From the NCBI RefSeq assembly GCF_024171925.1, contig NZ_JAMTCO010000007.1, positions 248,001-312,000 of the forward strand: a DNA stretch of 64,000 nt, given 5' to 3'. This stretch comes from Actinokineospora diospyrosa (GTDB taxonomy: Bacteria > Actinomycetota > Actinomycetes > Mycobacteriales > Pseudonocardiaceae). The position numbers and the translations under genes are program-made. Below, one piece after another: positions 7,063 to 39,840 of this stretch. Under the pieces are notes generated by a model. That model was not told where the DNA came from. It saw only the letters and a program-made list of their open reading frames with translations, and searched no databases. Positions within the stretch are counted from its first letter, which is position 1. Every line of letters starts with the position of its first letter.

Positions 7063-8121
7063 ATGGCCATCAACAGCGAGGCCATCAGCAGCCAGGCCGT
7101 GACGGCGGGGGCGGCGGAGACCGAGCAGCCGCCCCCGGCTGCCAAGCCGTCGTGGAAGTCCACGGCCATCACCTGGCTGCGCCGGGTGCTGATCCTGGCG
7201 GTGGTCGGTGGCGCCGTCTACTACGTGGTGACCCGCTGGAACGAGGTCTGGGCGACGCTGGCCACCGTGCCGTGGTGGTCGGCCGTGCTCAGCCTGCTGG
7301 CCGTGATCGCCGGTGTCGTCGTCGGCGCGTTCTCCTGGCGGGTGGTGGTCAACGACCTCGGCTCACCGGTGACCCGGACCCGGGGCGCGCAGATCTACCT
7401 GGTCAGCCAGCTCGGCAAGTACATCCCGGGCTCGGTGTGGGCGTACGTGCTGCAGATGGAGCTCGGCAAGAAGGTCGGCATCCCGCGCGCCAGGATGTTC
7501 GTCAGCTCCCTGGTGCAGGTCGGCGTCTCCGTGGTGGCCATGCTCACCCTCGGCATGATCGCGCTGCCCAAGATGCTCGACCAGAACCCGCGCGCGGTGT
7601 GGCTCTACGCCGCGCTGCCGATCAGCCTCGTCGCGCTGCACCCCAAGGTCATGACCTGGGGCGTCAACCTGGTGCTGCGGGTCCTGCGCAAGCAGCCCCT
7701 CGACCACCAGCTGCGGTGGGCCACCATCGGCAAGACTCTTGGCCTGTCGGTCCTGTCTTACGTGCTCTTCGGCGCCCACCTCTGGGCGCTGGCCACCGCT
7801 AGCGGCACCCCGGACCTCGGCGTGCTGCTGCTGTGCGTCGGCACTGTGGCGATCGGCCTGGTCGCCGGTCTGCTGTTCTTCATCGTTCCCTCCGGTGCGG
7901 GCGCCCGTGACGTCCTGGTGGCCCTGGCCCTCGCGCCGACCGTCGGGATCACTGCGGCGGCGGCCTTCGCGGTGGCCTCCCGGGTCATGTTCACCATCGC
8001 CGAGCTCGGCTCGGCCGGCGTCGCGGCGCTGCTGGCGTCCAGGCACGTCAAGGACCTGGTGGCCCAGCCCACCGCCACCCCGGAGAAGACCGCGCCGGAG
8101 AAGACCGAGGACCCCGCATGA
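7063..8121 (+). CDS. Flippase-like membrane protein (lysylphosphatidylglycerol synthase TM / AglD-like family)
   Basis: The 352-residue protein has a short Ala/Pro-rich cytoplasmic N-terminus and about eight transmembrane helices. It contains the family motif LVSQLGKYIPGSVWAYV and a second conserved stretch FIVPSGAGARDVLVALAL, which mark the MprF/AglD/YbhN-like TM domain. No C-terminal aminoacyl transferase domain is present, so it is not a complete MprF. Members of this family flip or use lipid-linked sugars. The ATG follows GGAGGA with good spacing. The stop overlaps the start of the acyltransferase gene as ATGA, so the two are coupled and probably act on the same envelope glycan. Confidence 0.85.
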   Translation: MAINSEAISSQAVTAGAAETEQPPPAAKPSWKSTAITWLRRVLILAVVGGAVYYVVTRWNEVWATLATVPWWSAVLSLLAVIAGVVVGAFSWRVVVNDLGSPVTRTRGAQIYLVSQLGKYIPGSVWAYVLQMELGKKVGIPRARMFVSSLVQVGVSVVAMLTLGMIALPKMLDQNPRAVWLYAALPISLVALHPKVMTWGVNLVLRVLRKQPLDHQLRWATIGKTLGLSVLSYVLFGAHLWALATASGTPDLGVLLLCVGTVAIGLVAGLLFFIVPSGAGARDVLVALALAPTVGITAAAAFAVASRVMFTIAELGSAGVAALLASRHVKDLVAQPTATPEKTAPEKTEDPA

Positions 8122-8837
8122 GCAAGATCCACCCCACCGCCGTCATCGGCGCGGGCGTCGAGTTAGGCGAGAACGTCAGCATCGGCCCCAACACGATCAT
8201 CCTCGGCCCCGCCGTGATCGGGGACGACTGCTGGATCGGCCCCGGCTGCGTCATCGGCACCCCGCCGGAGATCACCGGCGCCACGCACAACGGCGACTGG
8301 GACAGCGCGGCCAGCGAGTTCACCGGGGTGCGGATCGGCGCCCGGACCGTGGTCCGCGAGCTGACCACCATCCACCAGGGCAGCTACCGGCCGACCACCA
8401 TCGGATCCGACTGCTGGCTGCTCAACCGCGTCTACGTCGCCCACGACAGCCTCATCGGCGACCGGGTGACGCTGTCCGCCGGGGTCAGCCTCGGCGGGCA
8501 CTTCCAGGTCGGCGCCGGTGCCAACCTCGGCATGAACGTCGCGGGCCACCAGCGCAGGCTGGTCGGGCCCGGCGCCATGGTCGGCATGGGCGCGGCGATC
8601 ACCCGCGACGTGCCGCCGTTCGCCAAGGCCTTCGGCAACCCGGTGCGGCTGCGCGGGGTCAACTCGGTCGGCATGAGCCGCTCCGGGGTCGACGACGACG
8701 CGATCGCCACCCTCACCGCCGCCTACGCCGCGGGCGCGGTCCCCGCCGAGGTACCCGCCACGTTGGCCGAGGCGTTCGCCTGGTGGACCGCCGCGGAACC
8801 GGCTCGGCCGCTGGTCGGCGTCGCACAGCCGGTCTGA
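8118..8837 (+). CDS. LpxA-like left-handed beta-helix acyltransferase
   Basis: This 239-residue protein consists of hexapeptide repeats (IHPTAVIGAGVELGENVSIG and onward) to about residue 170, as in LpxA/LpxD-type O- or N-acyltransferases, followed by a helical tail. The internal motif VAHDSLIGDRVTLSAGVSLG places His near the usual catalytic position, and the segment TPPEITG/TTIHQGSYRPTTIG matches the LpxA-like family. Gram-positive actinomycetes do not make lipid A, so acylation of another sugar nucleotide is likely. With the aminotransferase and oxidoreductase 3-4 kb to the left, it could acetylate the amino sugar they produce. It overlaps the upstream flippase-like gene by 4 bp. About 200 bp with no recognised gene follow. 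Confidence 0.85.
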   Translation: MSKIHPTAVIGAGVELGENVSIGPNTIILGPAVIGDDCWIGPGCVIGTPPEITGATHNGDWDSAASEFTGVRIGARTVVRELTTIHQGSYRPTTIGSDCWLLNRVYVAHDSLIGDRVTLSAGVSLGGHFQVGAGANLGMNVAGHQRRLVGPGAMVGMGAAITRDVPPFAKAFGNPVRLRGVNSVGMSRSGVDDDAIATLTAAYAAGAVPAEVPATLAEAFAWWTAAEPARPLVGVAQPV

Positions 8838-9041: not shown

Positions 9042-10943
9042 ATGCCCCAGCGCGCGGCCAGTGCCACTACCCGGTCAGGCCAAGAGGCCCCCGAGTCCCC
9101 CGGCCGCTTGGTCGCCCAGCGCGGTTTGTTCCGCGGACCGGATCCGGTGTGCCCCGACAGCCTCTACGCCACGGTTGTGGCGGGTGCCGCAGACCGTGAA
9201 CGCGACCGGCTGATCGTTAGGCCCTACTCCGAGGTGAGCACCGACACGTACTTCGGTCGCTTCCCCGCTTCTTACTGGCAGCGGTGGACCGTCGTCGGTG
9301 AGGTCACCGTCGAGTTGGTGCTGACCGGAACCGCTCGGGTCTCCTTGGTCGCCTCGGACGAAGAGGGCGGCACTCGCGTAGTGGCCGCCCGCGACATCGG
9401 CGACGCTGCGGGCGAGACGGTTCGGCTGACCGCCAAGCTGGACAAGTTCCTCGACGGCGGGTTCCTCTGGCTCGACGTCACCACCGAGGCGGGCGAACTG
9501 CTCGTAGAGCGACTCGACTGGACCGTTGAGGCGCCCGAGCGATTCGTGCCCACCTCTGTCGTGATCTGCACCTTTAACCGTGCCGACGACTGCGTGCGCA
9601 CCCTCGGGTCGCTTGCCGCGGACAACGGCGCGCTGTCGGTCCTAGACGCTGTCTACGTCGTCGACCAAGGCACTGACACCGTTGAGTCGCGGACTAACTT
9701 CCCCGACCTCGAAAAGGGCCTCGGCGGCCGGTTGCGCTACCTGCGCCAGCCGAACCTCGGCGGTGCGGGCGGTTTTGGCCGGGGCATGTACGAAGTCGTC
9801 CGTAGTGGCGAGTCGAACGTGCTGCTCATGGACGACGACGTGCTGTGCGAGCCGGAGATCGCCGTGCGGCTCTCCGCGTTCGCGAACCGCACCAGCCGAC
9901 CCACCCTGGTCGGCGGCCAGATGCTGCGGCTGCTGCACCCCACCAAGCTGGTCGCGGGCGCTGAGTACGCCGACTTCAACCAGCTGATCCCCGGCAAGGT
10001 CGTCGCCAACGCGCTCGACGACGTCGACCTGCTCGACGAAGCCCTCGACGAGGACGGCGAGCCCACCGGCCTGCCCAACCGCGGCGACCGCCGAGTCGAC
10101 GCCGACTACAACGCCTGGTGGTCCTGCCTCATCCCGAACACGATCATCCGCGAGCTGGGCCTGCCGATCCCGCTGTTCTTCCAGTGGGACGACGTCGAGT
10201 ACGGCTACCGCGCCCGGACCCGCGGCTACGCCACGGTGACCCTGCCCGGCGCCGGTCTCTGGCACGCCGACTTCGACTGGAAAGACGGCGACCAGTGGGG
10301 CCAGTACTTCGCCCTCCGCAACGCCATGATCGTCGCGACGCTCTACTCGCCGTTCCCGCCCAAGCAGGTCGCCAGGGTGTTCACCTCCCGGGTCGCGCGG
10401 GCGCTGCTGGCGATGCAGTACGGCCTGGCAGCCACCCTGATCAAGGCGGCGGAGGACTTCCTCGTCGGCCCCGACGTGCTCGCCGACGGCGGGCAGGCGG
10501 CGGCGGCCGGCATCAGGGCGATCCGTGCCCAGTACCCTGACACGGTCGCGCACCCGGTTGGCTCGTTGCCGGAACTCGGCTTGGAGTACGTGCCCATGGT
10601 TCAGGCCGACATCGCGCCGAAGAACCCCAGGGTGGCACTGGCCAAGCAGTTGGTGCGGCTGGCTCGGGGGCGGACCAACTTCGGCGTCGGCGCCGTCCCG
10701 GCGCGGGACTCCGCGTGGTGGCACGTGTCCCGGTTCGACCGGGTGGTGGTCACCGACGCGGCGCAGGACAGCGTCCGGATCCGGGAGCGGGACAAGGACA
10801 CGGCCATCGAACTCGGCAAGCGCGCGGTGGTGCTCGCGCGCAGGCTGCTCGCCGACAGCGCGCGGGTCGCCGCCGACTACCGCGCGGCCATCCCGGCCGC
10901 GACGAGCACCGAGAACTGGGAACGGCTTTACGGCCCGCGGTGA
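9042..10943 (+). CDS. GlfT2-like galactofuranosyltransferase paralogue
   Basis: The 633-residue product has the GlfT2 architecture: an N-terminal beta-sandwich (about residues 55-165), a GT-A domain starting with SVVICTFNRADDC, and a helical C-terminus. Catalytic features are the DDD at 264-266 (LLMDDDVLCEPE), WWSCLIP, QWDDVEYGYRA and the metal-binding His in GLWHADFDW. It is clearly related to the next gene but its WDDxEY/H region differs more from mycobacterial GlfT2 (Rv3808c). GlfT2 extends galactan with alternating beta-1,5 and beta-1,6 galactofuranose on the lipid carrier. The paralogue could share this work, set a different linkage, or act on another galactofuranosyl polymer. The ATG at 9042 has GGAGGA 11 nt upstream; the spacing is rather long. 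Confidence 0.88.
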   Translation: MPQRAASATTRSGQEAPESPGRLVAQRGLFRGPDPVCPDSLYATVVAGAADRERDRLIVRPYSEVSTDTYFGRFPASYWQRWTVVGEVTVELVLTGTARVSLVASDEEGGTRVVAARDIGDAAGETVRLTAKLDKFLDGGFLWLDVTTEAGELLVERLDWTVEAPERFVPTSVVICTFNRADDCVRTLGSLAADNGALSVLDAVYVVDQGTDTVESRTNFPDLEKGLGGRLRYLRQPNLGGAGGFGRGMYEVVRSGESNVLLMDDDVLCEPEIAVRLSAFANRTSRPTLVGGQMLRLLHPTKLVAGAEYADFNQLIPGKVVANALDDVDLLDEALDEDGEPTGLPNRGDRRVDADYNAWWSCLIPNTIIRELGLPIPLFFQWDDVEYGYRARTRGYATVTLPGAGLWHADFDWKDGDQWGQYFALRNAMIVATLYSPFPPKQVARVFTSRVARALLAMQYGLAATLIKAAEDFLVGPDVLADGGQAAAAGIRAIRAQYPDTVAHPVGSLPELGLEYVPMVQADIAPKNPRVALAKQLVRLARGRTNFGVGAVPARDSAWWHVSRFDRVVVTDAAQDSVRIRERDKDTAIELGKRAVVLARRLLADSARVAADYRAAIPAATSTENWERLYGPR

Positions 10944-11044
10944 GCGGGCCGGTGCGCGCAGGAGAACAACAAAGACCTGGCAGGACCACCCAGGGGGACA
11001 ACCCGGTTCCCGGGGATCCACGGCAGGCTCGCTGGAGGAGCGAA

Positions 11045-12940
11045 GTGACCGAGCAGGGCAAAACGAACAGAACCGGTGCGCATGCCGTGCTGCAGCGGGT
11101 GATCTTGCCGCGGGGCACGGACCCGGTGGACGTCCGCCCGCTCTACCTGGACGAGCCGGACGCCATCCACAGCCTCGTGTCGGCCAGGACGAAGGTGACC
11201 ATCCCCGGCTCGGCCAGGGTGTCGTTCGCCTCGTACTTCAACGCCTTCCCGGCCAGCTACTGGAAGCGCTGGACCCGGGTCAGCGAGGTCGTGCTGCGGC
11301 TGAGCGCGCGCGGAGCGGGCCGGGTCGACGTGTACCGGTCCAAGCCCAACGGCGACCAGGTGCACCTCACCGGCCAGGCCGTGCGCACCGAGGGCGACGA
11401 GCCAGCCCAGGTGGAGTTCCGGATCAGCCTCGCCCCCTTCGAGGACGGCGGCTGGATCTGGTTCGACGTGTTCACCGAGGACTCCCCGCTGGAGATCTCG
11501 GACGCGGCTTGGACGACCGACCTGCAGCTGCCGCCGACCAGGCTGTCCATCGGCACCACCACGTTCAACCGGGTCGACGACTGCGTGAACTCGCTGCTCG
11601 CGCTCGGCGAGGACCCGGTCGTGCTGGACGCGCTGACCAAGGTCTACGTGGCCGACCAGGGCACCCAGAAGATCTCCAGCCACCCCCGCTTCACCGAGGC
11701 GGCCGCGCTGCTCGGCGACCGCCTCGAGGTGATCGAGCAGGGCAACCTGGGCGGCTCCGGCGGCTTCAGCCGGGCGTTCTTCGAGACGATCGAGCACTCC
11801 GACGTCGACCAGATCATGCTGATGGACGACGACATCTCGCTGGAGCCGGACTCGATCCTGCGCGCCAGCATGTTCGCCCGCGCCGCGACCGCCCCGGTGA
11901 TCGTCGGCAGCCAGATGCTGAACCTGCAGGCCAAGGCCAGGCTGCACAGCATGGGCGAGGTCGTCGACCTGAGCAGCTTCACCTGGCGGGCCGCGCCAGG
12001 CGCGCTCACCGACCACGACTTCGGCCTCAAGTCGTTGCGCGAGACCAAGAAGCTGCACCGCCGCATCGACGCCACCTACAACGGGTGGTGGATGTGCCTG
12101 TTCCCCCGCGAGATCATCAAGGCGACCGGCCTCCCGCTCCCCCTGTTCATCAAGTGGGACGACGCCGAGTACTCGCTGCGCGCGCTGGAGAAGGGTTACC
12201 CCACGGTCACCCTGCCCGGCTCCGGCGTCTGGCACATGCCCTGGACCGACAAGAACGACGCGTCGGACTGGACCGCCTACTTCCACCTGCGCAACCGCCT
12301 GATCGTCGCGGCGCTGCACACCCCGCACGACCACCGCAAGGTGCTGCTCAAGCAGGGTCTGCGGGTCACCATCCGCAGGCTGCTGTCGATGGAGTACTCG
12401 ACGGTCGCGATCGAGCTCAAGGCCATCGAGGACTTCCTGGCGGGCCCGGACCGCCTCTTCGACCTCCTGCCGACAGTCCTGCCGGAGGTCCAACGCATCC
12501 GCAAGCAGTACGCGGACGCCCAAACCCTCCCGTCGGCCAGCGAGTTCCCGCCGCCCACCCTGGACGCGGTGCACGCCGAGCGCATGCTGCGCCCCCCGGT
12601 GAACCCGGCCAAGATCGCCGCCCAGGCCGCCCAGGCGCTGCTGCACAACCTGCGCCCCCCGGCCCCGGAATCCGCCGACCGCCCCCAGGTGAACGTCCCC
12701 GCGGGCAGCGCCCTCTGGTTCCTCCTGGGCAACCTGGACAGCGCCACCGTCTCCAACCCGGACGGCAGCGGCGTCGCCTTCCGCAAGCGCGACCCGGAAA
12801 CCTTCCGCGAACTGGCCAAACAAGCCACCGGCGCCTACCGCCGCCTGGCCGCCGAATGGCCGACCGCGAAGGACACCTGGCGAGCCGCCCTCCCAGAACT
12901 CACCTCCGTCGAGTCCTGGCGCAAGGTCTTCGAGAGCTAG
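11045..12940 (+). CDS. glfT2: Galactofuranosyltransferase GlfT2
   Basis: The 631-residue protein matches GlfT2 of galactan synthesis: a beta-sandwich N-terminal domain with FNAFPASYWKRWT, the GT-A start LSIGTTTFNRVDDC, the DDD metal motif at 261-263, NGWWMCLFPRE, then IKWDDAEYSLRALEKGYPTV and VWHMPWTDKND with the catalytic His. These follow the mycobacterial enzyme closely. It uses UDP-galactofuranose from Glf to polymerise the galactan on decaprenyl-diphosphate at the inner membrane face. The GTG at 11045 was chosen because GGAGGAG ends 4 nt before it; the frame is open 110 codons further upstream into the preceding gene. A separate ribosome site and a 101-bp gap suggest independent translation from the paralogue. 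A terminator follows. Confidence 0.95.
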   Translation: MTEQGKTNRTGAHAVLQRVILPRGTDPVDVRPLYLDEPDAIHSLVSARTKVTIPGSARVSFASYFNAFPASYWKRWTRVSEVVLRLSARGAGRVDVYRSKPNGDQVHLTGQAVRTEGDEPAQVEFRISLAPFEDGGWIWFDVFTEDSPLEISDAAWTTDLQLPPTRLSIGTTTFNRVDDCVNSLLALGEDPVVLDALTKVYVADQGTQKISSHPRFTEAAALLGDRLEVIEQGNLGGSGGFSRAFFETIEHSDVDQIMLMDDDISLEPDSILRASMFARAATAPVIVGSQMLNLQAKARLHSMGEVVDLSSFTWRAAPGALTDHDFGLKSLRETKKLHRRIDATYNGWWMCLFPREIIKATGLPLPLFIKWDDAEYSLRALEKGYPTVTLPGSGVWHMPWTDKNDASDWTAYFHLRNRLIVAALHTPHDHRKVLLKQGLRVTIRRLLSMEYSTVAIELKAIEDFLAGPDRLFDLLPTVLPEVQRIRKQYADAQTLPSASEFPPPTLDAVHAERMLRPPVNPAKIAAQAAQALLHNLRPPAPESADRPQVNVPAGSALWFLLGNLDSATVSNPDGSGVAFRKRDPETFRELAKQATGAYRRLAAEWPTAKDTWRAALPELTSVESWRKVFES

Positions 12941-31326: not shown

Positions 31327-32223
31327 TCAGTGCCTGAAGAACTGCTCGCGTTGACCCCGCCGCACGAGTTTTAGCCACTCGAAGAATGCCTTCGGGTCTC
31401 GCTTAGTGCCCAGGAAGTACAACCCGAACCGAAACACCTCAAGCATCCCCAGCTTGCGCATGCCCGGCTGCGACAAGAGGTAGCCCCGGTTGCGATAGGT
31501 GTAATAGCGCTTCACCACGTTGTCCGGGTCTTGCGCGTGGAGCTTGCCGCCGAGCATCGGCTTGAACTCGTCGCTGCCATCCGGGTGTAGGTAGGCGGCG
31601 CGGAGGCAGGTGCCGAAAGGTAGGCCCGACCGCACGAGGCGGCGGTGGATCTCTACCTCGTCACCGCGGAAGAAGAGGCGGTAGTCGGGGACGCCGACCA
31701 CGTCGAGGGTGTCGGCGCGGAAGAGGGCGCCGTTGAACAGGGAGGCGATCCCGGGTAGGAAGTCCTCGCCGAGCTGGTCGGCTTCGCGCTTCCAGGTCAG
31801 GCCGCGGCGCAGGGGGAAGGCGAGGCGCTCGGGGTGGTCGATGTTGGTGACCATCGGCGACACCTCGGCGAGGCCGCGGCGCTCGGCGACGTCGAGCAGG
31901 GTCGCCAGGACGGTCTCGTCGGCGGGGCGGCCGTCGTCGTCGGCCAGCCACAGCCAGTCGGCGCCCATCGACAGCGCGTGCAGCATGCCCAGGGCGAACC
32001 CGCCCGCGCCGCCGAGGTTGCGGTGCGAGGTCAGGTAGGTGGTGGGCAGCGGGCAGGCCGCGACCACGTCCTCGGCCGAGTCGTCCGGGCCGTTGTCCAC
32101 CACGACCAGGTGGTCCGGCGGCCGGGTCTGCGCCGCGATCATCTTGAGGGAGTCGGACAGGAGTGCGCGCCGGTGCCGGGTGACCACTACGGCCACCACC
32201 GCACCCGCCTGCAACCGCGTCAT
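31327..32223 (-). CDS. glfT1: Galactofuranosyltransferase GlfT1
   Basis: The 298-residue GT2 enzyme starts the galactan by adding the first galactofuranose units to the decaprenyl-PP-GlcNAc-rhamnose primer. It has VAVVVTRHRRALLSDSL, VVVDNGPDDSAEDV, the motif HRNLGGAGGFALGM and LWLADDDGRPADE with the metal-binding DDD, and FFRGDEVEIHRRL in the acceptor region. It matches Rv3782 in sequence and in context. It is last in a leftward three-gene operon wzm-wzt-glfT1, overlapping the ATPase gene by 4 bp (ATGA). The product acts at the inner membrane face and feeds GlfT2. Confidence 0.93.
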   Translation of the reverse strand: MTRLQAGAVVAVVVTRHRRALLSDSLKMIAAQTRPPDHLVVVDNGPDDSAEDVVAACPLPTTYLTSHRNLGGAGGFALGMLHALSMGADWLWLADDDGRPADETVLATLLDVAERRGLAEVSPMVTNIDHPERLAFPLRRGLTWKREADQLGEDFLPGIASLFNGALFRADTLDVVGVPDYRLFFRGDEVEIHRRLVRSGLPFGTCLRAAYLHPDGSDEFKPMLGGKLHAQDPDNVVKRYYTYRNRGYLLSQPGMRKLGMLEVFRFGLYFLGTKRDPKAFFEWLKLVRRGQREQFFRH

Positions 32224-33011
32224 CGAGTCTCGCCGAGCCTTTCCAGGGTCTCCGGGCTCATCTGTTCCAGCGGATCGCGGCCCTTGTAGGCCGTCAGCAC
32301 CTCGCGCAGGTCACCGTGCATCTTGATCCGGCCCTCGTCCATCCAGATGGCCGTGTTGCACAGCTCGAACAGCAGCTCGTCGGAGTGCGAGGCGAACACC
32401 AGCATGCCCGAGCGGCGGACCAGGTCGACCAGCCGGTCGCGCGCCTTGGCCATGAACGCCGCGTCGACCGCGCCGATGCCCTCGTCGAGCAGCAGGATCT
32501 CCGGGTCGATCGAGGTGACCACGCCCAGCGCCAGCCGCACCCGCATGCCGGTCGAGTAGGTGCGCAGCGGCAGGTGCAGGTAGTCGCCGAGCTCGGTGAA
32601 GTGCGAGATGTCCTCGACCCGCTCCTGCATCTGCTTGCGGGTCATCCCCAGGAACAGGCCGCGGATGAAGATGTTCTCCATCCCGGAGATCTCCGGGTCC
32701 ATGCCGACCGCCAGGTCGAAGACCGGGGCGATCTTGCCCTTGATCTCCGAGGTGCCCCTCGTCGGCTCGTAGATGCCCGAGAGCAGCCGCAGCAGCGTGG
32801 ACTTGCCCGCGCCGTTGTGCCCGACCAGGGCGACCCGGTCGCCGTCGCGCAGGCTCAGGGTGATGTCGTGCAGCGCCTCGATGATCGGCACCCGGGCCTC
32901 GGTGCCGATCTTGCCGCCCACCTTGCCCAGGACGGCCTTCTTCAGCGAACGCGTCTTGGCGTCGAAGATCGGGAAGTCGACTGAGGCGTTGTGTACGTCG
33001 ATACTGACCAT
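32220..33011 (-). CDS. wzt: ABC transporter ATPase (galactan export, Wzt-like)
   Basis: The 263-residue ATPase has Walker A GHNGAGKSTLLRLLSG, the signature YSTGMRVRLALG, Walker B PEILLLDEGIGAVD and the switch His in FASHSDELL, all typical of O-antigen/teichoic acid exporters (RfbE/Wzt/TagH type). It lacks a C-terminal carbohydrate-binding domain. It corresponds to Rv3781 and is thought to flip lipid-linked galactan with the permease encoded upstream. ATG 33011 was chosen over one at 33053, because the latter would overlap the upstream permease stop. It is coupled to glfT1 at its 3' end. Confidence 0.93.
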   Translation of the reverse strand: MVSIDVHNASVDFPIFDAKTRSLKKAVLGKVGGKIGTEARVPIIEALHDITLSLRDGDRVALVGHNGAGKSTLLRLLSGIYEPTRGTSEIKGKIAPVFDLAVGMDPEISGMENIFIRGLFLGMTRKQMQERVEDISHFTELGDYLHLPLRTYSTGMRVRLALGVVTSIDPEILLLDEGIGAVDAAFMAKARDRLVDLVRRSGMLVFASHSDELLFELCNTAIWMDEGRIKMHGDLREVLTAYKGRDPLEQMSPETLERLGETR

Positions 33012-33027
33012 GGTGTGACTGCCTCGT

Positions 33028-33975
33028 TCAGACCCAGTAGGAGACACGGGCACGGTAGTTGCGCATGGCCAAGAAGGCCAGGCTCCACCCGACGACGGTG
33101 ATGACGCCGACGACCACCCAGTGGTGCCAGCTCTGCTCGCTGCCGATCAGTGGCGCGCGCAGGATCTGCACGAAGTGGTACAGCGGGTTCAACTCGACGA
33201 TCAGGTGCTTCCAGTCGCCGGGGCCGAGCTTCTGGGTCAGCACGTCGACCGGCCACACGATCGGCGTCGCGTAGAAGAGCAGCTGCGTCAGCGCGTTGAT
33301 GACCTGCGGGATGTCGCGGTAGCGGGTGCTGATGATGCCGAACAGCAGGGCGACCCAGGCGCCGTTGAGGGCGAGCACGACGAACGCGGGGATGGCGAGC
33401 ACCATCGTCCAGCTCAAGCCCGGCTGGGGGGCGCCGTTGGGGGAGAGCGTGTAGCCGCCCGCGGCGATCGAGCCGAAGAACAGCGCGAGCACCACGGCGT
33501 AGACGAGCATGTTGTGCAGCATCATCAACGTCTGCCGCCACACCGTCCGCAGCGCGTAGACGGTCAGCGGCGCGGGCAGGTGCTTGATCAAGCCCTCGTT
33601 GGAGATGAACGCGTCCGAGCCCTCGGTCAGGCAGCCCAGGATGAAGCCCCAGACGATGAAGCCGACGGTCAGGTAGGGCAAGAACGTGTTGACCGCGATG
33701 CCGAACAGCTGGGAGTAGAGCAGGCCGAGGCCCGCCGCCGTGACCCCCATGCTCATGGTGATCCACAGCGGCCCGATCACCGAGCGCCGGTACCGCTGTT
33801 TGATGTCCTGCCAGCCGAGGTGGCCCCACAACTCCCGGGCGGCGACGCCGTCCCGGATGTCCTTAGCCGCCCGCGCCCAACTCCGCCCGGAGTGCACCAC
33901 CGGACTCGCCGGGATGTCTATCGCGCTCGTTACCTGCACGGTGGTTGAGACTACCGGCGGTTCCCCCAAGGGCAT
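33028..33975 (-). CDS. wzm: ABC transporter permease (galactan export, Wzm-like)
   Basis: The ~315-residue permease has an N-terminal cytoplasmic part with ARELWGHLGWQDIKQRYRRS, the amphipathic interface typical of O-antigen export permeases (RfbD/Wzm/TagG), then six hydrophobic helices including LPYLTVGFIVWGFILGCL and the conserved ISTRYRDIPQVINALTQ. It corresponds to Rv3783. With the Wzt-like ATPase it should move lipid-linked galactan across the membrane. Start choice is uncertain: ATG 33975 is used here, GTG 33939 is an alternative, and neither has a clear ribosome site. It is divergent from the neuB gene, with 94 bp between. Confidence 0.9.
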   Translation of the reverse strand: MPLGEPPVVSTTVQVTSAIDIPASPVVHSGRSWARAAKDIRDGVAARELWGHLGWQDIKQRYRRSVIGPLWITMSMGVTAAGLGLLYSQLFGIAVNTFLPYLTVGFIVWGFILGCLTEGSDAFISNEGLIKHLPAPLTVYALRTVWRQTLMMLHNMLVYAVVLALFFGSIAAGGYTLSPNGAPQPGLSWTMVLAIPAFVVLALNGAWVALLFGIISTRYRDIPQVINALTQLLFYATPIVWPVDVLTQKLGPGDWKHLIVELNPLYHFVQILRAPLIGSEQSWHHWVVVGVITVVGWSLAFLAMRNYRARVSYWV

Positions 33976-34069: not shown

Positions 34070-35107
34070 TTGGCCGAAATACTCGTCGGTTCCCGTGCCG
34101 TCGGATCGGTCCACCCGCCACTGGTGATCGCCGAGATCGGCATCAACCACGAGGGCGACCCGGACAAGGCCCACCGGATGGTCGCCGACGCGGCCGACGC
34201 GGGCGTGGAGTGCGTCAAGTTCCAGACCCACGTGGTCGAGGACGAGATGATCCCCAACGACGTCGTCCCCGGCAACGCCGACGAGCCCATCTACGCGATG
34301 ATGCGCCGCTGCGCGCTGCCCGCGTCGGTGGAGCGCGAGCTCAAGGCGCACGCCGAGGAGCGGGGCATGGTGTTCCTGTCCACCCCGTTCTCCAGGGCGG
34401 CCGCCGACCGCCTCGCCGAGCTGGACGTCGCCGCGTACAAGATCGGCTCCGGGGAGTGCAACAACTACCCGCTGGTCGGCCACATCGCCGCGCTCGGCAA
34501 GCCGGTCATCCTGTCCACCGGCATGAACGACATCGCCTCCATCCGGCCCGCTGTGGACCTGCTGCGCGCCGCCGGGGTCGGTTACGCGCTGCTGCACTGC
34601 ACGTCGCTCTACCCGACCCCGCCCGAGCAGGTCCGCCTCGGCGCTCTGGCCGAACTGCGCGCGGAGTTCCCGGACGCCGTCCTCGGCCTGTCCGACCACA
34701 CGACGTCGATCTACCCGTGCCTCGGCGCGGTCCCGCTCGGCGCGCGGGTGCTGGAGCGGCACTTCACCTCGGACGCCACCTGGCCGGGTCCGGACATCCC
34801 GGTGTCCTCGACGCCCGCGGAGTTCGCCGAGCTGGTCACCGGCTCCCGGTTGATCTTCGCCGCCCTCGGTGGCACCAAAGAGATCTTGGCCGCGGAGCAG
34901 CCGACGATCGACTTCGCCTACGCCAGCGTCGTCACCACCGCGCCGATCGCCGCCGGGGACGAGCTGACCGCGGCCAACCTGTGGGTCAAGCGCCCCGGCA
35001 CCGGCGAGATCCGCGCCGCCGAGTACCCCACCCTGCTCGGCCGCCGGGCCGCCACCGACCTACCGGTCGACCGGCAGTTGAGCTGGAACGACCTCGCGGA
35101 TGTCTGA
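34070..35107 (+). CDS. neuB: Nonulosonic acid synthase (NeuB family)
   Basis: The 345-residue protein condenses phosphoenolpyruvate with a hexosamine (ManNAc or a diacetamido sugar) to a nine-carbon acid. It has the NeuB TIM barrel (VIAEIGINHEGDPDKAHRM, VKFQTHVVEDEMIP, FLSTPFSRAAADRL, YKIGSGECNNYPLV, LSDHTTSI) and a C-terminal antifreeze-like SAF domain (about 285-345, ITAPIA... LWVKRPGTGEI). The sequence cannot tell sialic, legionaminic or pseudaminic acid apart. Translation starts at TTG 34070, with GCAGGAGG 9 nt upstream. It overlaps neuC by 8 bp, so both act in one pathway. It is divergent from the galactan exporter. Confidence 0.93.
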   Translation: MAEILVGSRAVGSVHPPLVIAEIGINHEGDPDKAHRMVADAADAGVECVKFQTHVVEDEMIPNDVVPGNADEPIYAMMRRCALPASVERELKAHAEERGMVFLSTPFSRAAADRLAELDVAAYKIGSGECNNYPLVGHIAALGKPVILSTGMNDIASIRPAVDLLRAAGVGYALLHCTSLYPTPPEQVRLGALAELRAEFPDAVLGLSDHTTSIYPCLGAVPLGARVLERHFTSDATWPGPDIPVSSTPAEFAELVTGSRLIFAALGGTKEILAAEQPTIDFAYASVVTTAPIAAGDELTAANLWVKRPGTGEIRAAEYPTLLGRRAATDLPVDRQLSWNDLADV

Positions 35108-36230
35108 GAGTTGCCGAGAGGTCCTGTTCGTCACCGGCACCAGGGCCGACTTCAGCAAACTCCGCGACATCATGCTGGCCGTCCAGTCCAGCGACCACCT
35201 CGAAGCCCGCGTCGTGGTCACCGGCATGCACCTGCTCCGCCGCTACGGCTACACCGTCCACGAGGTCGAACGGGTGGGCCTGCGCCGGTTGCACCTGATC
35301 CCCAACCAGGTCGACGGCGAGCCCATGGCCCTGGTCCTCGCCAACACGGTCCAGGCGCTCACCAGGTTGGTGCACGAGGAACGGCCGGACGCAATCGTGG
35401 TCCAGGGGGATCGCGTTGAGGCTCTGGCTGCCGCGCTGGTGGGGTCGCTGCACAACGTCCGGGTGATCCACATTGAGGGCGGGGAAGTCTCGGGCGCGAT
35501 TGACGACTCCGTGCGGCATTCGATTTCCAAGCACGCACACGTGCATTTGGTGGCAAACGCTACTGCTCGGGCGCGGTTGCTGCAGTTGGGCGAGGAAGAG
35601 GATCGCGTCTTCGTGGTGGGCAGCCCGGAGATTGATATTTTGACGTCGCCGGACTTGCCTTCGATCGCGGAGGTGCGGGAGCGGTACGAGATCGGGTTCG
35701 AGCGGTACGGGGTGCTGGTGGTGCATCCGGTCACGACTGAGCCCGGTCTGAACTCGATGAACGCGGCCGCGGTTGTTGACGCGGTACTTGCTGGTGGTGG
35801 GAACTGGGTCATCATCGATCCGAACAACGATGCCGGGTGCGACGACATTCGCAAGGAATTGGATCGACTTACGGGAGAGCGGTTCACCCGGCTGCCGTCG
35901 ATGCGATTCGAGCATTTCGTGACGTTGATGCGGAATGCGGATGTGATGGTGGGGAACTCGTCGTCGGGGGTGCGGGAAGCGCCTGTGGTGGGGACGCGGG
36001 TGGTGAATGTGGGAACGCGGCAGCGGGGGCGGACGAATGCTGAGGGTGTGTTGAACGTGGCGCCGGACCCGGGGGAGATCCGGGAGGCGGTGGCAGAGGT
36101 GTGCCGGTTGCCGCGGTTGCCCGCGTTCCACGGGTTCGGGGAGCCAGGGGCGCGTCGGCGGATTATCAAGTTGTTCGAAGGCACGGCGTTGTGGCGGCCG
36201 TCGTTGTATAAGCAGTTCGTGGATCGGTGA
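35100..36230 (+). CDS. neuC: UDP-GlcNAc 2-epimerase, hydrolysing type (NeuC/LegG-like)
   Basis: The 376-residue protein is a GT-B-fold sugar epimerase of the NeuC type: FVTGTRADFSKLRDIM at the N-terminus (RADFxKL), VVQGDRVEALAAALVG, and the active-site region IHIEGGEVSGAIDDSVRHSI, with a C-terminal NSSSGVREAPVVGT motif that binds the UDP moiety. It makes ManNAc (or its diacetamido analogue) for NeuB. It starts at ATG 35100, inside the last codons of neuB. Codon use changes about one third of the way through: C-ending codons give way to G-ending ones (GTG, GGG, CGG), and the G-rich bias continues into the following gap. Confidence 0.9.
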   Translation: MSESCREVLFVTGTRADFSKLRDIMLAVQSSDHLEARVVVTGMHLLRRYGYTVHEVERVGLRRLHLIPNQVDGEPMALVLANTVQALTRLVHEERPDAIVVQGDRVEALAAALVGSLHNVRVIHIEGGEVSGAIDDSVRHSISKHAHVHLVANATARARLLQLGEEEDRVFVVGSPEIDILTSPDLPSIAEVRERYEIGFERYGVLVVHPVTTEPGLNSMNAAAVVDAVLAGGGNWVIIDPNNDAGCDDIRKELDRLTGERFTRLPSMRFEHFVTLMRNADVMVGNSSSGVREAPVVGTRVVNVGTRQRGRTNAEGVLNVAPDPGEIREAVAEVCRLPRLPAFHGFGEPGARRRIIKLFEGTALWRPSLYKQFVDR

Positions 36231-36243
36231 GGCTTGGTGGTGG

Positions 36244-36354
36244 TGGTTGTCCACAACCAGCGCGCTTGTCCACAGGTCCTGTTCGCCGCTCCCGGTTTGT
36301 TGGTGCCTCTCGGTAGGCTGTATATCGGGGGCTCTTGCTTCAGTTGATCTTGGG
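36244..36354 (+). repeat. Paired DnaA-box unit 1
   Basis: Perfect DnaA boxes TTGTCCACA are at 36247-36255 and 36266-36274 (19 bp apart). The sequence TAGGCTGTATAT begins at 36314, 48 bp after the start of the second box, followed by GGGGGCTCTTG. Confidence 0.92.
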
Positions 36355-36395
36355 TGTGGGGGTGGTTGGGCCGCTTGTTGCCGTGGCGAGTTGCT

Positions 36396-36507
36396 TGGTT
36401 GTCCACAATGGCTGCGGTTGTCCACAGGTCCCGTTCGCTGCTGCCGGTTTGTCGGTGCGCGTCGGTAGGCTGTGTATTTGGGGGCTTTCGATCAGGTTGA
36501 TCTTGGC
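36396..36507 (+). repeat. Paired DnaA-box unit 2
   Basis: TTGTCCACA boxes are at 36399-36407 and 36418-36426, again 19 bp apart. TAGGCTGTGTAT begins at 36466, again 48 bp after the start of the second box, followed by GGGGGCTTTCG and TTGATCTTGG. Confidence 0.92.
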
Positions 36508-36642
36508 GTAGGCCGGGGTTGGGGGTGCGGGGCAAGGGATTGGGGTCGGCCTCGTCGCCTGGCGGCGAGCTCGGCGACCCGGGATCGGACGCCTCGTTGC
36601 CTGGCGGCAACATCGGGCCCGATCCGCGACAATGCGTAAAAG

Positions 36643-36785
36643 CTCGATGCGGTGGACCTGTTTTGTGCGGGGCCCCTACGACACCCGTGGCAGGACCGCA
36701 AAGCAGGGGCCGAAAAGCATGGCCCTGTCCGCTACCGACGCTACGGCTGCCGCTCCCCCACACAAAACAGGTCCACCCCATCGAG
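36643..36785. repeat. 143-bp element with 30-bp terminal inverted repeats
   Basis: The arms 36643-36672 and 36756-36785 match inversely at 28 of 30 positions (core GGTGGACCTGTTTTGTG). The 83-bp centre contains a smaller inverted repeat (CAGGGGCC...GGCCCTG). No target duplication and no coding sequence are visible. It could be a MITE-like element or a structured RNA. Confidence 0.8.
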
Positions 36786-37340
36786 CATTTGGCACCAGCG
36801 AGTCCGACTGTCCAGGCGCTGAGTAGGTGGGCTGACGAGTGCGGGCTGGGTTGGCACCGGCCGTTCCGAGTGTCCAGGGGCTGGGTTGGTGGGTTGGGGC
36901 GGACCTGACGGGGGGCGGGTTGGCACCGCAGGGTCCGAGTGTTCGGGGGCTGGCCGGGTGGGTTGGCGGGTGGTTGTCCACAACGGGTTCTGTTGTCCAC
37001 AGGCCGTGGTCGCTGCCCCGGTTCTGTCGGGATCTCTCAATAGGCTGTGTATTGGGGGCTCTTGCGCCAGATGATCTTGCGTGGGGTGGGGTGGAGCCAG
37101 CGGGTTGCGGGTGTCAGTGGCTGAGTTGGTGGGTTGGGGCGGACCTGACGGCAGCTGGGTTGGCACCGGCGGGTCCGAGTGTCCAGGGGCTGGGTTGGTG
37201 GGCTGGAGCGGACCTGGCGGGGGCGGGCCGACGCAGGCTGGGGCGGTACCGGTGCGTTGGAGGGCCGCTGGCTGGCCAGGTGGGTGGGGGCGGACCCGGC
37301 CGAGGATGGGGACTGGCGAGTCCGAGTGTTCAGTGGTCGG
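36786..37340. repeat. Degenerate tandem repeat around unit 3
   Basis: Related units containing GGTTGGCACCGGCGGGTCC, GAGTGTCCAGGGGCTGG and TTGGGGCGGACCTGACGG occur at about 36786, 36848, 36919, 37159 and 37312, with ~70-bp spacing where adjacent. DnaA-box unit 3 interrupts the array. Confidence 0.78.
36971..37080 (+). repeat. Paired DnaA-box unit 3
   Basis: TTGTCCACA boxes are at 36974-36982 and 36993-37001, 19 bp apart. TAGGCTGTGTAT begins at 37041, 48 bp after the second box start, then GGGGGCTCTTG and GATCTTGCG. Confidence 0.92.
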
Positions 37341-37400
37341 CGGGCCAGTCACGTATGAGTGGGCAGCTAGTGACCGCCCGGCGATAGGCAAGTGAGAAGG

Positions 37401-37793
37401 CTATTCCGCGCCCTGTTCGAGGCGGGTTAGGCGTTCTTCGTAGCGGGCGACAAGGCTGAGGCGGGTGCGGATTCGGGCGTGTTCCTCCCGGATCTCCTCC
37501 ACCAACCCAGCCACTGCGTTGTCGCTGCCCACAGGAACCGCTGGCCGCACGTGTTCCACCTCAGCCAACCGGGGTTCGATGGCGGCCGTTTGGGCGGCTA
37601 TGCGGCGGTGTTCGCTGTTGAGCCAGTTCACCGCGTCCGTCAGTTCCGTCAGCTGGCGCGAGAGTTCGTCCAGTTTCGGGGTCAGTTCCGTGCGGAGTTG
37701 TTCGATCTCGCGGCTCGCTTCGGTGCCGACCGCGGTGGCTTCGGTTCGGGCTACGGCGTAGACGCGGCGCCAGAGGGGGGCGAGGGGGTTCAT
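37401..37793 (-). CDS. Small coiled-coil protein coupled to the GT29-like gene
   Basis: The 130-residue protein starts MNPLAPLWRRVYAVART and is mostly predicted helix with heptad-like spacing: EIEQLRTELTPKLDELSRQLTEL, then SEHRRIAAQTAAIEPRLAEVE, and a C-terminal LVEEIREEHARIRTRLSLVARYEERLTRLEQ. No membrane segment or signal peptide is seen. The ATG at 37793 overlaps the stop of the GT29-like gene as ATGA, so the two are co-translated. Similar small coiled-coil proteins accompany glycosyltransferases as scaffold or length-control partners in other systems; here this is inference. Confidence 0.78.
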   Translation of the reverse strand: MNPLAPLWRRVYAVARTEATAVGTEASREIEQLRTELTPKLDELSRQLTELTDAVNWLNSEHRRIAAQTAAIEPRLAEVEHVRPAVPVGSDNAVAGLVEEIREEHARIRTRLSLVARYEERLTRLEQGAE

Positions 37794-38446
37794 GGGAGGA
37801 GTTCGATTCTGCCCGTTGTCGACCAGTGGTGCAGGAGGGTGGCTTCCGCTCGGAGCCGGTGTTCCGGGGTGACCGCCACGGGGGCGCCCCAGGCGTGCGG
37901 GAAGGTGGTTTGGTCGGGGGAGTCGATGATCGAGGTCCCGGTCAGCAGGACGCTCGCGTCGGGGAACAGCTCGGTCACCAGGTACGTCGTGAGGGTGCCG
38001 GTGGTCGGCCAGGTGGGGGCGGTGGAGTCCAGGCCGAGCAGGGCGTTGAGCGGGACGGTGAACTCGCGGTTCGGGATGGGGACGAAACCGAGGTCGGCTG
38101 GCCACCAGTCCGGGATGGTCTCCGGTTCCCAGTGCAGCCGCCCGGGTTCGACGAGCAGGTACAACCGCGAGGTGTAGTCGGCGAAGGTGTGCGGGCTGGC
38201 GATCACGCCCCGGTGCAGGACGACCACGTCGGTCCTGGTGCCGAGGGCGGTGGGGTCGACGGTGAAGCTGGTCATGCGGATGACCAGGTCGCAGGCGTCG
38301 ATCGCGGCCGCGCGGGCGGGGTCGGCGGGGAGGGGGGCGTTGCCGACCACGGCGACCGTGCGCGGCGGTACCCGGCGCGCATAGGCACCGAGCAGGTCGG
38401 CCAGCGCTGAAGTGGCAGTCACCGGCTCGTTGAGCAGAATGGTCAT
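37790..38446 (-). CDS. GT29 (sialyltransferase)-like glycosyltransferase
   Basis: The 218-residue protein carries counterparts of the sialylmotifs of family GT29. The L-type motif is VAVVGNAPLPADPARAAAID and CDLVIRMTSF (about 31-60). The S-type motif is PTTGTLTTYLVTELFPDASV with LLTGTS (about 147-172). A VS-like HxxxxE motif, HRLRAE, is at 196-201. GT29 enzymes transfer sialic acid from CMP-sialic acid. The gene lies between neuB-neuC and neuA, which supports this role. There is no signal peptide or membrane anchor, so it would act on a cytosolic or inner-face acceptor. Bacterial GT29-like proteins are short and diverse, so the assignment is likely but not certain. ATG 38446 is used; neuA is divergent, 83 bp away. 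Confidence 0.75.
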   Translation of the reverse strand: MTILLNEPVTATSALADLLGAYARRVPPRTVAVVGNAPLPADPARAAAIDACDLVIRMTSFTVDPTALGTRTDVVVLHRGVIASPHTFADYTSRLYLLVEPGRLHWEPETIPDWWPADLGFVPIPNREFTVPLNALLGLDSTAPTWPTTGTLTTYLVTELFPDASVLLTGTSIIDSPDQTTFPHAWGAPVAVTPEHRLRAEATLLHHWSTTGRIELLP

Positions 38447-38529
38447 GTGTGGGGGTGGGGGGTCGAGGTGTACTAGGCGATCAAGCCTAAGGTCTTGGGC
38501 TGTTCAGCGCAGCGCGAGAGGAACGTAGT

Positions 38530-39186
38530 GTGACCGATGTGGTGGCGGTGGTTACCGCCCGCAGTGGATCCGTGGGGTTCCCGGGCAAGAACCTTGCCCT
38601 CTTCCGGGGTAGGCCGCTGGTCGCGCACGCCGTGCTGACGGCACTGGAGACACCGCGGGTCGACCGGGTGGTGGTCACGACCGACGACACCGCCATCGCG
38701 AAGGCGAGTGCGGGCGCGGAGATCGTCTACCGGCCACCGGCACTGTCCAGGCCCGACAGCCGATCCGTGGACGCGGTCCTGCACGCGGTGGACGAACTGG
38801 GGATCGAGGACGCCCTCCTGGTCCTGCTCCAACCGACGTCGCCGTTGCGCACGGCCGGTGATGTCGCCGAGTGCCTGCGGCTGCACGGCGACCGGACAAC
38901 CGGGTCCGTGGTCCAGATGTCGGCGGGGGAGGAGCACCACCCGTGGAAGGCGTGCGTGCTCGACGACGGCCGCCTCCGGCCCGCGCACGACTGGGCGGAT
39001 CTTGAGGCACCGCGCCAAAACCTGCCCCAGGTGCTGCGCCCCACCGGCGGCGTCTACGTCGTTGGTCTACGCGATCTCCGCGCGCACCGCCGGTTCTTCG
39101 TCCCCGAGGTCCTGGCCCAAGTCGTCCCGGCCGCGCGGGCGATCGACATCGACAGCCCCGCGGATCTCGCGCGCGCCCACCAGTAA
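38530..39186 (+). CDS. neuA: CMP-nonulosonic acid synthetase (NeuA family)
   Basis: The 218-residue nucleotidyltransferase activates a nonulosonic acid with CTP. It has VVTARSGSVGFPGKNLALF, the RxGSxxxPxKN nucleotide-binding motif, VVVTTDDTAIAK, the motif LLQPTSPLRTAGDV, and RQNLPQVLRPTGGVYV in the sugar-binding half, as in NeuA/PseF/LegF. It completes the neuB-neuC-neuA set: 2-epimerase, synthase, CMP activation. It starts at GTG 38530, in the 83-bp divergent region with the GT29-like gene, so one promoter region may drive both. A strong bidirectional terminator separates it from bpa. Confidence 0.93.
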   Translation: MTDVVAVVTARSGSVGFPGKNLALFRGRPLVAHAVLTALETPRVDRVVVTTDDTAIAKASAGAEIVYRPPALSRPDSRSVDAVLHAVDELGIEDALLVLLQPTSPLRTAGDVAECLRLHGDRTTGSVVQMSAGEEHHPWKACVLDDGRLRPAHDWADLEAPRQNLPQVLRPTGGVYVVGLRDLRAHRRFFVPEVLAQVVPAARAIDIDSPADLARAHQ

Positions 39187-39246: not shown

Positions 39247-39780
39247 CTACAGGTATTGCCCGGTCCCGCCGGGGCGCAGGTGCGGTCCCTCTTCGACCTT
39301 GGCGCCCGGCGGCAGCCCGCGCCGCATCTGCTCCAGCTGCACCCTGGCCGCCATCTGCTGGGCGAAGAGCGCGGTCTGGATGCCGTGGAACAGGCCCTCC
39401 AGCCAGCCGACCAGCTGCGCCTGCGCGATCCGCAGCTCGGCGTCGGACGGGGTGCTCTCCTCGGTGAACGGCAGCGAGAGCCGCTCCAGCTCGTCGCGCA
39501 GCTCCGGGGCGAGACCGTCCTCGAGCTCGGCGATCGAGCGCTTGTGGATCTCCCGCAGCCGGTTGCGGCTGGCCTCGTCCAGCGGCGCCGCGCGGACCTC
39601 CTCCAGCAGCTGCTTGATCATCGTGCCGATCCGCATGACCTTGGCCGGTTGTTCGACCATGTCGCCGACCGACTCCGCGTCGAGGCTGTCCGGGATCTTC
39701 GCGCTGCCGAGCGGGGAACCGTCGGGGCCGACCACCACCACGTGGTGCGCCTCGTCCGAGCCGGGGGAGGGTTGAGTCAC
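39247..39780 (-). CDS. bpa: Bacterial proteasome activator Bpa
   Basis: The 177-residue protein matches Rv3780 (Bpa/PafE), an ATP-independent activator that docks on the 20S proteasome. It has a helical core (RIGTMIKQLLEEVRAAPLDE, RIAQAQLVGWLEGLFHGIQT, FAQQMAARVQLEQM) that forms the dodecameric ring. The C-terminus GQYL is the docking motif. GTG 39780 is the start; the long frame to 40983 upstream is a shadow of the next gene. In M. tuberculosis bpa is directly beside the galactan ATPase gene Rv3781; here the neu cassette lies between them. Confidence 0.95.
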   Translation of the reverse strand: MTQPSPGSDEAHHVVVVGPDGSPLGSAKIPDSLDAESVGDMVEQPAKVMRIGTMIKQLLEEVRAAPLDEASRNRLREIHKRSIAELEDGLAPELRDELERLSLPFTEESTPSDAELRIAQAQLVGWLEGLFHGIQTALFAQQMAARVQLEQMRRGLPPGAKVEEGPHLRPGGTGQYL

Positions 39781-39840
39781 GCCGTCGAGGGTAGTGCCCC
39801 ACGCGGCACGGGGCTGGCGGACTCTCGTACGGTGTGGCTC

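Follow-up and report, generated by a model that had tools for sequence, protein, structure and literature searches.

A nonulosonic acid cassette beside the galactan exporter genes of Actinokineospora diospyrosa, a candidate module for decorating cell-wall galactan

Genes between wzm and bpa

The subject of this study is a 64,000-nucleotide stretch of the 8.1 Mb genome of Actinokineospora diospyrosa (contig NZ_JAMTCO010000007.1, positions 248,001 to 312,000; G000:C7:248001-312000 in our numbering), hereafter the window. Between the galactan export permease gene wzm and bpa it holds neuB, neuC, a repeat-rich stretch, a gene for a coiled-coil protein (CC), a gene for a protein resembling the GT29 glycosyltransferases (GT29L) and neuA. 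We propose that this cassette may serve to transfer a nonulosonic acid to cell-wall galactan. In window coordinates, the interval and its borders comprise:

31327..32223, minus strand: GlfT1 galactofuranosyltransferase (NF050113 516.8 bits, cut-off 330)
32220..33053, minus strand: Wzt, galactan export ATP-binding cassette (ABC) ATPase (NF050108 461.2 bits, cut-off 400)
33028..33909, minus strand: Wzm, galactan export ABC permease, divergent from neuB (NF050109 423.6 bits, cut-off 380)
34070..35107, plus strand: NeuB-type nonulosonic acid synthase, 345 aa, TTG start, C-terminal SAF domain
35100..36230, plus strand: NeuC-type hydrolysing UDP-GlcNAc 2-epimerase, overlapping neuB by 8 nt (TIGR03568)
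36230..37400, no strand: repeat-rich stretch in which no gene is supported, made up in part of three ~160-nt units that contain two copies of TTGTCCACA apiece
37401..37793, minus strand: CC, coiled-coil partner, 130 aa, 4-nt overlap (ATGA) with the end of the GT29L gene
37790..38446, minus strand: GT29L, GT29-like putative CMP-nonulosonate transferase, 218 aa
38530..39186, plus strand: NeuA-type CMP-nonulosonate synthetase, GTG start (PF02348)
39247..39801, minus strand: bpa, bacterial proteasome activator, the far border of the slot (PF10759 265.2 bits)

Family scans agree with a preliminary description of this DNA, which had named homologues of NeuB, NeuC and NeuA with a GT29-like gene and a coiled-coil gene at these positions. 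Its placement of the cassette between the galactan exporter genes and bpa also holds, but the genes do not form a single operon: they make up three blocks, NeuB-NeuC on the plus strand, GT29L-CC on the minus strand and NeuA on the plus strand, with about 1.2 kb of repeat-rich DNA between NeuC and CC. In Mycobacterium tuberculosis, as the preliminary description noted, bpa (Rv3780) adjoins the exporter ATPase gene (Rv3781), and we take the gene order there to be bpa-wzt-glfT1-wzm; here it is the permease gene wzm, and not the ATPase gene, that borders the cassette. The NeuB family model matches one place only in a genome-wide profile search. No exporter of its own was found among the cassette genes scanned with family models, and no nonulosonic acid polymerase was recognised among the genes scanned. 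A chance arrangement is excluded because the same arrangement recurs in relatives, as set out below.

The earlier proposal that the host makes and activates a sialic-like acid is borne out as a genomic prediction, and a strong one. The window NeuB scores 236.6 bits against PF03102 (cut-off 22.1) and 40.5 bits against the SAF domain, as a NeuB-type synthase should, and its best match in the Protein Data Bank (PDB) is the N. meningitidis N-acetylneuraminic acid (Neu5Ac) synthase 1xuu (E 1.2e-116). It lies below the N-acetylneuraminate synthase equivalog TIGR03569 (353.6 bits against 399.65), and Neu5Ac is therefore the simplest product rather than one assigned by the model. NeuC exceeds the curated cut-off of TIGR03568 (367 bits against 235.9), as NeuA does the gathering score of PF02348 (54 bits against 22.6); the best PDB match of NeuA is the CMP-NeuAc synthetase 1eyr (E 1.1e-39), and it falls short of the PseF equivalog (86.4 against 205.7). 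A legionaminic acid pathway is disfavoured, the LegC aminotransferase model TIGR04181 having nine matches in the genome with a best score of 242.8 bits against 420. NeuC, NeuB and NeuA would thus be expected to convert UDP-GlcNAc to ManNAc, then, most simply, to Neu5Ac and finally to CMP-Neu5Ac.

GT29L and its coiled-coil partner

GT29L is likely a nonulosonic acid transferase. Sialyltransferases head both its profile and its structural matches, and residues resembling the sialylmotifs are invariant in all 27 aligned GT29L sequences, including H196-x4-E201, which corresponds to the H-x4-E definition of sialylmotif VS (PMC8433944; this and the other papers given by PMC number are cited from excerpts). 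The predicted model, partly poor at a predicted local distance difference test score (pLDDT) of 66.8, aligns best to sialyltransferases, with all Z scores below 8. GT29L has no evident membrane span; bacterial GT29 enzymes, according to excerpts of PMC5811610, lack a transmembrane segment and the L/S disulphide cysteines. The window protein itself scores below the gathering score of the Pfam GT29 model PF00777 (12.7 bits against 23), two of eight relatives scanned singly (L112 and L139) gave no PF00777 match, and the best Foldseek match has an E value of 0.024, above 0.001. From such scores it might be argued that GT29L is not a glycosyltransferase, that the true transferase is encoded elsewhere and that GT29L-CC is structural or regulatory. 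We consider this very unlikely: L134, one of the relatives, attains the PF00777 cut-off (23.6 against 23), 18 of the 27 GT29L relatives match the model at E <= 1, sialyltransferases lead the matches, the motif residues of GT29L are invariant, and a strong NeuB accompanies GT29L in all 35 genomes that carry it (the genome was not searched for sialyltransferases of other families).

The AlphaFold2 model of CC consists of two helices, residues 5-81 (77 residues) and 91-129 (39 residues), with a pLDDT of 88.3 and a predicted TM-score of 0.42. The C-terminal part is conserved, and the N-terminal part is variable in sequence and length. A CC match adjoins GT29L in all 35 genomes of the Pseudonocardiaceae sample and at all 14 Geodermatophilaceae loci described below. 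Coiled coils match one another easily, and this constant place beside GT29L is a stronger sign than the match itself.

Recurrence in Pseudonocardiaceae

The comparison of the exporter-bpa interval proposed in the preliminary description was carried out across a family sample of 150 Pseudonocardiaceae, with a NeuB match taken as strong at E <= 1e-60. Counts are of genomes, and genus counts are added since relatives are not independent. GT29L matched in 35 genomes, any NeuB in 51, strong NeuB in 41, Wzm in 150 and BPA in 149; among the matches listed, coordinates were available for Wzm in 148 of 150 and for BPA in 149 of 150. The comparison of loci took the 41 genomes with strong NeuB, the other 10 of the 51 having weak NeuB matches only.

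In 33 of the 35 genomes, representing 13 of the 15 genera, no more than 4.3 kb separates GT29L from wzm, and 25 genomes have it inside the wzm-bpa interval. Strong NeuB is present in 35/35 GT29L genomes compared with 6/115 genomes lacking GT29L, and these six copies are either over 50 kb distant from wzm or not on its contig. For pairs on one contig no more than 50 kb apart, the median wzm-bpa gap is 8331 bp in 27 GT29L genomes and 769.5 bp in 108 GT29L-negative ones. A placement next to wzm and divergent from it is found in at least three different gene orders and with three donor pathways, and the exporter genes Wzm-Wzt adjoin the cassette as in ABC-dependent terminator systems. In G040 and G074, GT29L-CC is found at wzm while the Pse genes are beside bpa on another contig. 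A search of a phylum-wide sample matched 2 of 396 genomes: the source genome of the window and a second one, where the match was weak and partial.

The view of the cassette as an insertion into a conserved locus is upheld in that the wzm-bpa gap is below 1 kb in 60 of the 108 measurable GT29L-negative relatives, but not as an event unique to this strain. A one-off horizontal insertion in A. diospyrosa was rejected on the finding of GT29L in 14 of 16 Actinokineospora.

Another possibility is that wzm and bpa merely enclose a generic insertion slot in which the cassette is an unrelated passenger. Ten proteins were scanned from GT29L-negative slots, covering six of the 14 genomes with intervals above 4 kb, and four of these six slots hold unrelated genes; the proteins met include FecCD transporters (three loci), BREX-like ATPases with an S15 peptidase (one) and an acyl-CoA dehydrogenase (one). 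Such a passenger is nonetheless improbable, given that 33 of 35 GT29L genes are at wzm while all six GT29L-free strong NeuB genes are distant or on other contigs, that GT29L-CC stays at wzm in G040 and G074 with the Pse genes on another contig, and that the linkage to wzm recurs in Geodermatophilaceae. Moreover, a different acidic modification is encoded in two of the six negative slots, by a polysaccharide pyruvyltransferase gene that in one case lies directly beside wzm. These pyruvyltransferases (PF04230; L153 6599-7762 and L159 1731-2993) would be another way to add negative charge.

Three donor pathways in one slot

The 35 GT29L genomes divide into 26 with Pse-type, five with Kdn-type and four with Neu-type donor genes. 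For G017, G040 and G074, whose genes are on separate contigs, the type was set manually, and G031, whose slot is cut by a contig end, was typed by PseI alone; these four types have partial evidence behind them. Family models were used to scan the Pse type in L120 and the Kdn type in L112 and partly in L117, and tblastn to these served elsewhere. In L120, PseB (481.9 bits, cut-off 407.75) and PseI (451.2, cut-off 340.25) exceed their cut-offs, PseC (402.3) is under its cut-off of 423.5, the PseH and PseG matches are under theirs, and a cytidylyltransferase is present without a PseF match. The third type, in L112, has a NeuB-family synthase without a SAF domain and a cytidylyltransferase-phosphatase fusion whose matches to the models for KdsC and KDN-9-phosphate phosphatase stay under the cut-offs; we read this cassette as Kdn-type.

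All three types are also found within Actinokineospora, where the 14 GT29L genomes comprise seven Neu, six Kdn-type and one Pse, with G550 typed by NeuA alone. The Pse species, G100, retains Actinokineospora-like flanks, and it is therefore the cassette that was exchanged and not the locus. In a GT29L tree of 43 rows (two of them, G032 and L033, with identical sequences), one supported side holds ten Neu rows and all five Kdn rows, and the other all 26 Pse rows with two Neu rows, G009 and a long-branched Blastococcus. The donor labels need five changes on this tree against a shuffle mean of 15.2, and none of 200 shuffles was as low. GT29L clades thus largely track donor chemistry, which fits a transferase that follows the stereochemistry of its donor; Neu and Kdn are stereochemically alike.

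Two further observations concern the contents of these slots. G009 (L135) is a hybrid, in which NeuBCA is combined with a GT29L of the Pse type; it also has a Pse-type cytidylyltransferase that seems to be a remnant. Many Pse-type slots also contain a multi-spanning protein of ~500 aa (e.g., L120 11645-13144) without a Pfam family; one of two tested is weakly similar to the beta-(1->2)-arabinofuranosyltransferase model NF041481 (26.8 bits against 1050), and one searched in the PDB gave no credible relative.

A second family, Geodermatophilaceae

Across the order, GT29L was found in 38 of 397 genomes, 24 of them Pseudonocardiaceae and 14 Geodermatophilaceae (f89). In the latter, GT29L-CC is accompanied by Pse genes in six (one of these assigned from PseI alone, at a contig end), by Neu genes in three and by Kdn-type genes in one. 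The remaining four belong to genus g310 (Geodermatophilus), in whose loci GT29L-CC is separated from wzm by 2.2 kb that include a GlfT2 paralogue, and NeuA, C and B start ~9 kb further on. A wzm gene is present within 23 kb of GT29L in 8 of the 14 genomes, four at 2.2 kb and the others at 8, 17, 20 and 23 kb. No wzm appeared in the stretches examined for the remaining six, of which three were viewed over ~28 kb on each side and three have near contig ends; in two of the three viewed over ~28 kb, DprE1 is ~20 kb away. The flanking genes scanned at four loci away from wzm (L222, L223, L225 and L229) encode SbcC/D, PurK, an acyl-CoA dehydrogenase and an acyltransferase; none of them is a galactan gene.

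This looser linkage is what would be expected if GT29L were a real CMP-nonulosonate transferase acting on another envelope molecule, such as a teichulosonic-acid-like polymer, a glycolipid or a protein, and its place at wzm were simply an inherited neighbourhood of wall genes. There is a precedent in the Kdn-containing teichulosonic acid that excerpts of PMC7831098 describe as the major wall glycopolymer of Streptomyces coelicolor. Furthermore, 2 of the 35 Pseudonocardiaceae have GT29L at a distance from wzm, and no wzm was seen in the stretches examined for the six loci above. We nevertheless regard another acceptor as rather unlikely, considering that the adjacency to wzm recurs with at least three gene orders and three donors, that the scanned cassette genes include no exporter of their own, and that in Geodermatophilus a galactofuranosyltransferase paralogue stands between wzm and GT29L.

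In three of the g310 loci, all five large proteins scanned near GT29L are LGFP-repeat proteins (L233 9495-15976, L234 9537-12512 and L231 2093-7687), two of the five with an amidase domain.

Other galactan genes and repeats in the window

The window has two tandem GlfT2-type genes within 9042-12940, one canonical and one divergent:

9042..10943, plus strand: T2b, divergent GlfT2 paralogue (PF19320 89.8 bits, PF17994 83.8 bits)
10715..12940, plus strand: GlfT2 galactan polymerase, open frame with homology from ~11090 (PF17994 188.3 bits at G000:C7:259090)

T2b is 46-47% identical to three 620-aa Geodermatophilaceae proteins and 37% identical to the neighbouring GlfT2, and its Geodermatophilus counterpart is the paralogue between wzm and GT29L. 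It is present in 32/35 GT29L genomes against 54/115 GT29L-negative ones, at a cut of E 1e-140 chosen after the list had been viewed, with a truncated match in G103 counted as absent and genera not independent. T2b was considered as an obligate partner of GT29L, but it is enriched and neither required nor specific. Several relatives, e.g., G014, have a single GlfT2-type match (E <= 1e-40), of the divergent class. Elsewhere, at 8118-8837, an LpxA-like hexapeptide acyltransferase (NF003657 169.4 bits against a cut-off of 226) lies beside an LPG-synthase-type membrane protein.

The repeat-rich DNA of the cassette contains, at 36242-37128, three ~160-nt units, each with two TTGTCCACA 19 nt apart. 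All six copies of this sequence in the window are found here, against 0.26 expected, and we take it to be a high-GC DnaA box. The same spaced pair is present in four loci of genus g32 (L134, L140, L142 and L143).

Discussion

In actinobacteria that contain arabinogalactan, galactan forms the core polymer of the wall, and to our knowledge its decoration with a sialic-type acid is not part of the mycobacterial pathway. On balance, we favour a reading of the cassette as a donor-swappable module that transfers a nonulosonic acid to cell-wall galactan in the cytoplasm before export, and we hold galactan itself to be a reasonably probable acceptor. The timing, in the cytoplasm, is inferred, as is the preference for a cap over side branches. 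GlfT1 and GlfT2 assemble galactan on decaprenyl phosphate in the cytoplasm (PMC10951656), and the CMP-activated acid would be made in the same compartment, such that GT29L could meet the galactan ahead of Wzm-Wzt. GT29L, held by its coupled coiled-coil protein, may then move the acid to the lipid-linked chain, and the decorated chain would be exported by Wzm-Wzt. In this scheme the donor pathway (Neu, Kdn or Pse type) would be exchangeable, while GT29L-CC and its link to the exporter would remain constant. Attachment to an envelope glycan, perhaps arabinogalactan, had already been put forward in the preliminary description; comparative genomics lends weight to this predicted attachment, through GT29L near wzm in 13 of 15 genera, three donors and a looser linkage in a second family.

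Besides the low profile and fold scores of GT29L, the unrelated genes in long GT29L-negative slots and the Geodermatophilaceae loci where no wzm was seen, several observations weigh against this proposal. We know of no GT29 enzyme with galactofuranose as acceptor. The cassette is not at wzm in G017 and G032 (2 of the 35 sampled Pseudonocardiaceae), nor is there a wzm within ~8 kb of it in two of the 14 Actinokineospora, G545 and G554 (in a third, G550, a contig end interrupts the locus). A. xionganensis (L201) has no cassette gene between wzm and bpa. No CC match was found in Saccharothrix obliqua (L034), and G009 pairs Neu genes with a GT29L of the Pse type. The window Wzt is short, at 277 aa, and only an ABC domain was found in it.

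The boldest form of the galactan proposal, which we put forward as a tentative analogy that may well be wrong, is that GT29L-CC is both a chain terminator and a ruler, an acidic nine-carbon cap ending the galactan chain before export. It is suggested by the terminators of Klebsiella O antigens, with which GT29L-CC shares its ingredients. In these ABC-exported polymers, excerpts of PMC11231755 describe terminators, some of them CMP-Kdo-dependent, that carry coiled-coil rulers setting chain length. CC would then space the transferase from the galactan polymerase, and caps could be swapped between species like serotypes. Terminator and coiled coil are not joined in one protein here, being encoded in two overlapping open frames, which counts against this form. 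Decoration without length control is the more cautious reading.

No report of nonulosonic acid on galactan or arabinogalactan was found among the papers listed in literature searches that were mainly open-access, with subscription journals mostly outside them, so that such a report may still exist in print. If the galactan proposal is correct, 35 of 150 sampled Pseudonocardiaceae and some Geodermatophilaceae (14 found) would bear an acidic, species-variable group on their galactan. GT29L would place GT29-like enzymes in actinobacteria, with Neu, Kdn or Pse donor partners, and could be useful for enzyme engineering. The idea of length control makes the setting of galactan length testable in a genetically varied clade and, if true, would constitute an actinobacterial parallel of Kdo-capped O antigens, with a GT29-like transferase acting on a furanose galactan.

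The module displays individual features of several known systems. The neighbourhood resembles the mycobacterial galactan exporter locus in bringing together GlfT1, Wzt, Wzm, BPA, GtrA and DprE genes, but here the wzm-bpa interval is occupied by the nonulosonic acid module. Its donor genes belong to the same families as those of the NeuBCA, Pse and Kdn biosynthesis pathways, which here can replace one another as the source of donor for a single transferase family at a single locus. GT29L shares the sialylmotif pattern of bacterial GT29 sialyltransferases; the 23 enzymes of PMC5811610 are described, in the excerpts, as proteobacterial, whereas GT29L is found in two actinobacterial families together with a coiled-coil partner. 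Actinobacterial teichulosonic acids likewise bring a nonulosonic acid (Kdn) into a wall polymer, although that polymer, as excerpted from PMC7831098, is made of Kdn and galactose, and in our case a single transferase stands at a galactan exporter. A further parallel is with the Klebsiella O4 ORF7/GT137 and O12 WbbB proteins (excerpts of PMC11231755), with which it has in common an ABC-exported polymer, a CMP-ulosonate transferase and a long coiled coil. The present module differs in that its coiled coil is a protein of its own, coupled to the transferase, which is GT29-like; the donor would have nine carbons, and the polymer would be an actinobacterial galactofuranose galactan whose termination is a proposal.

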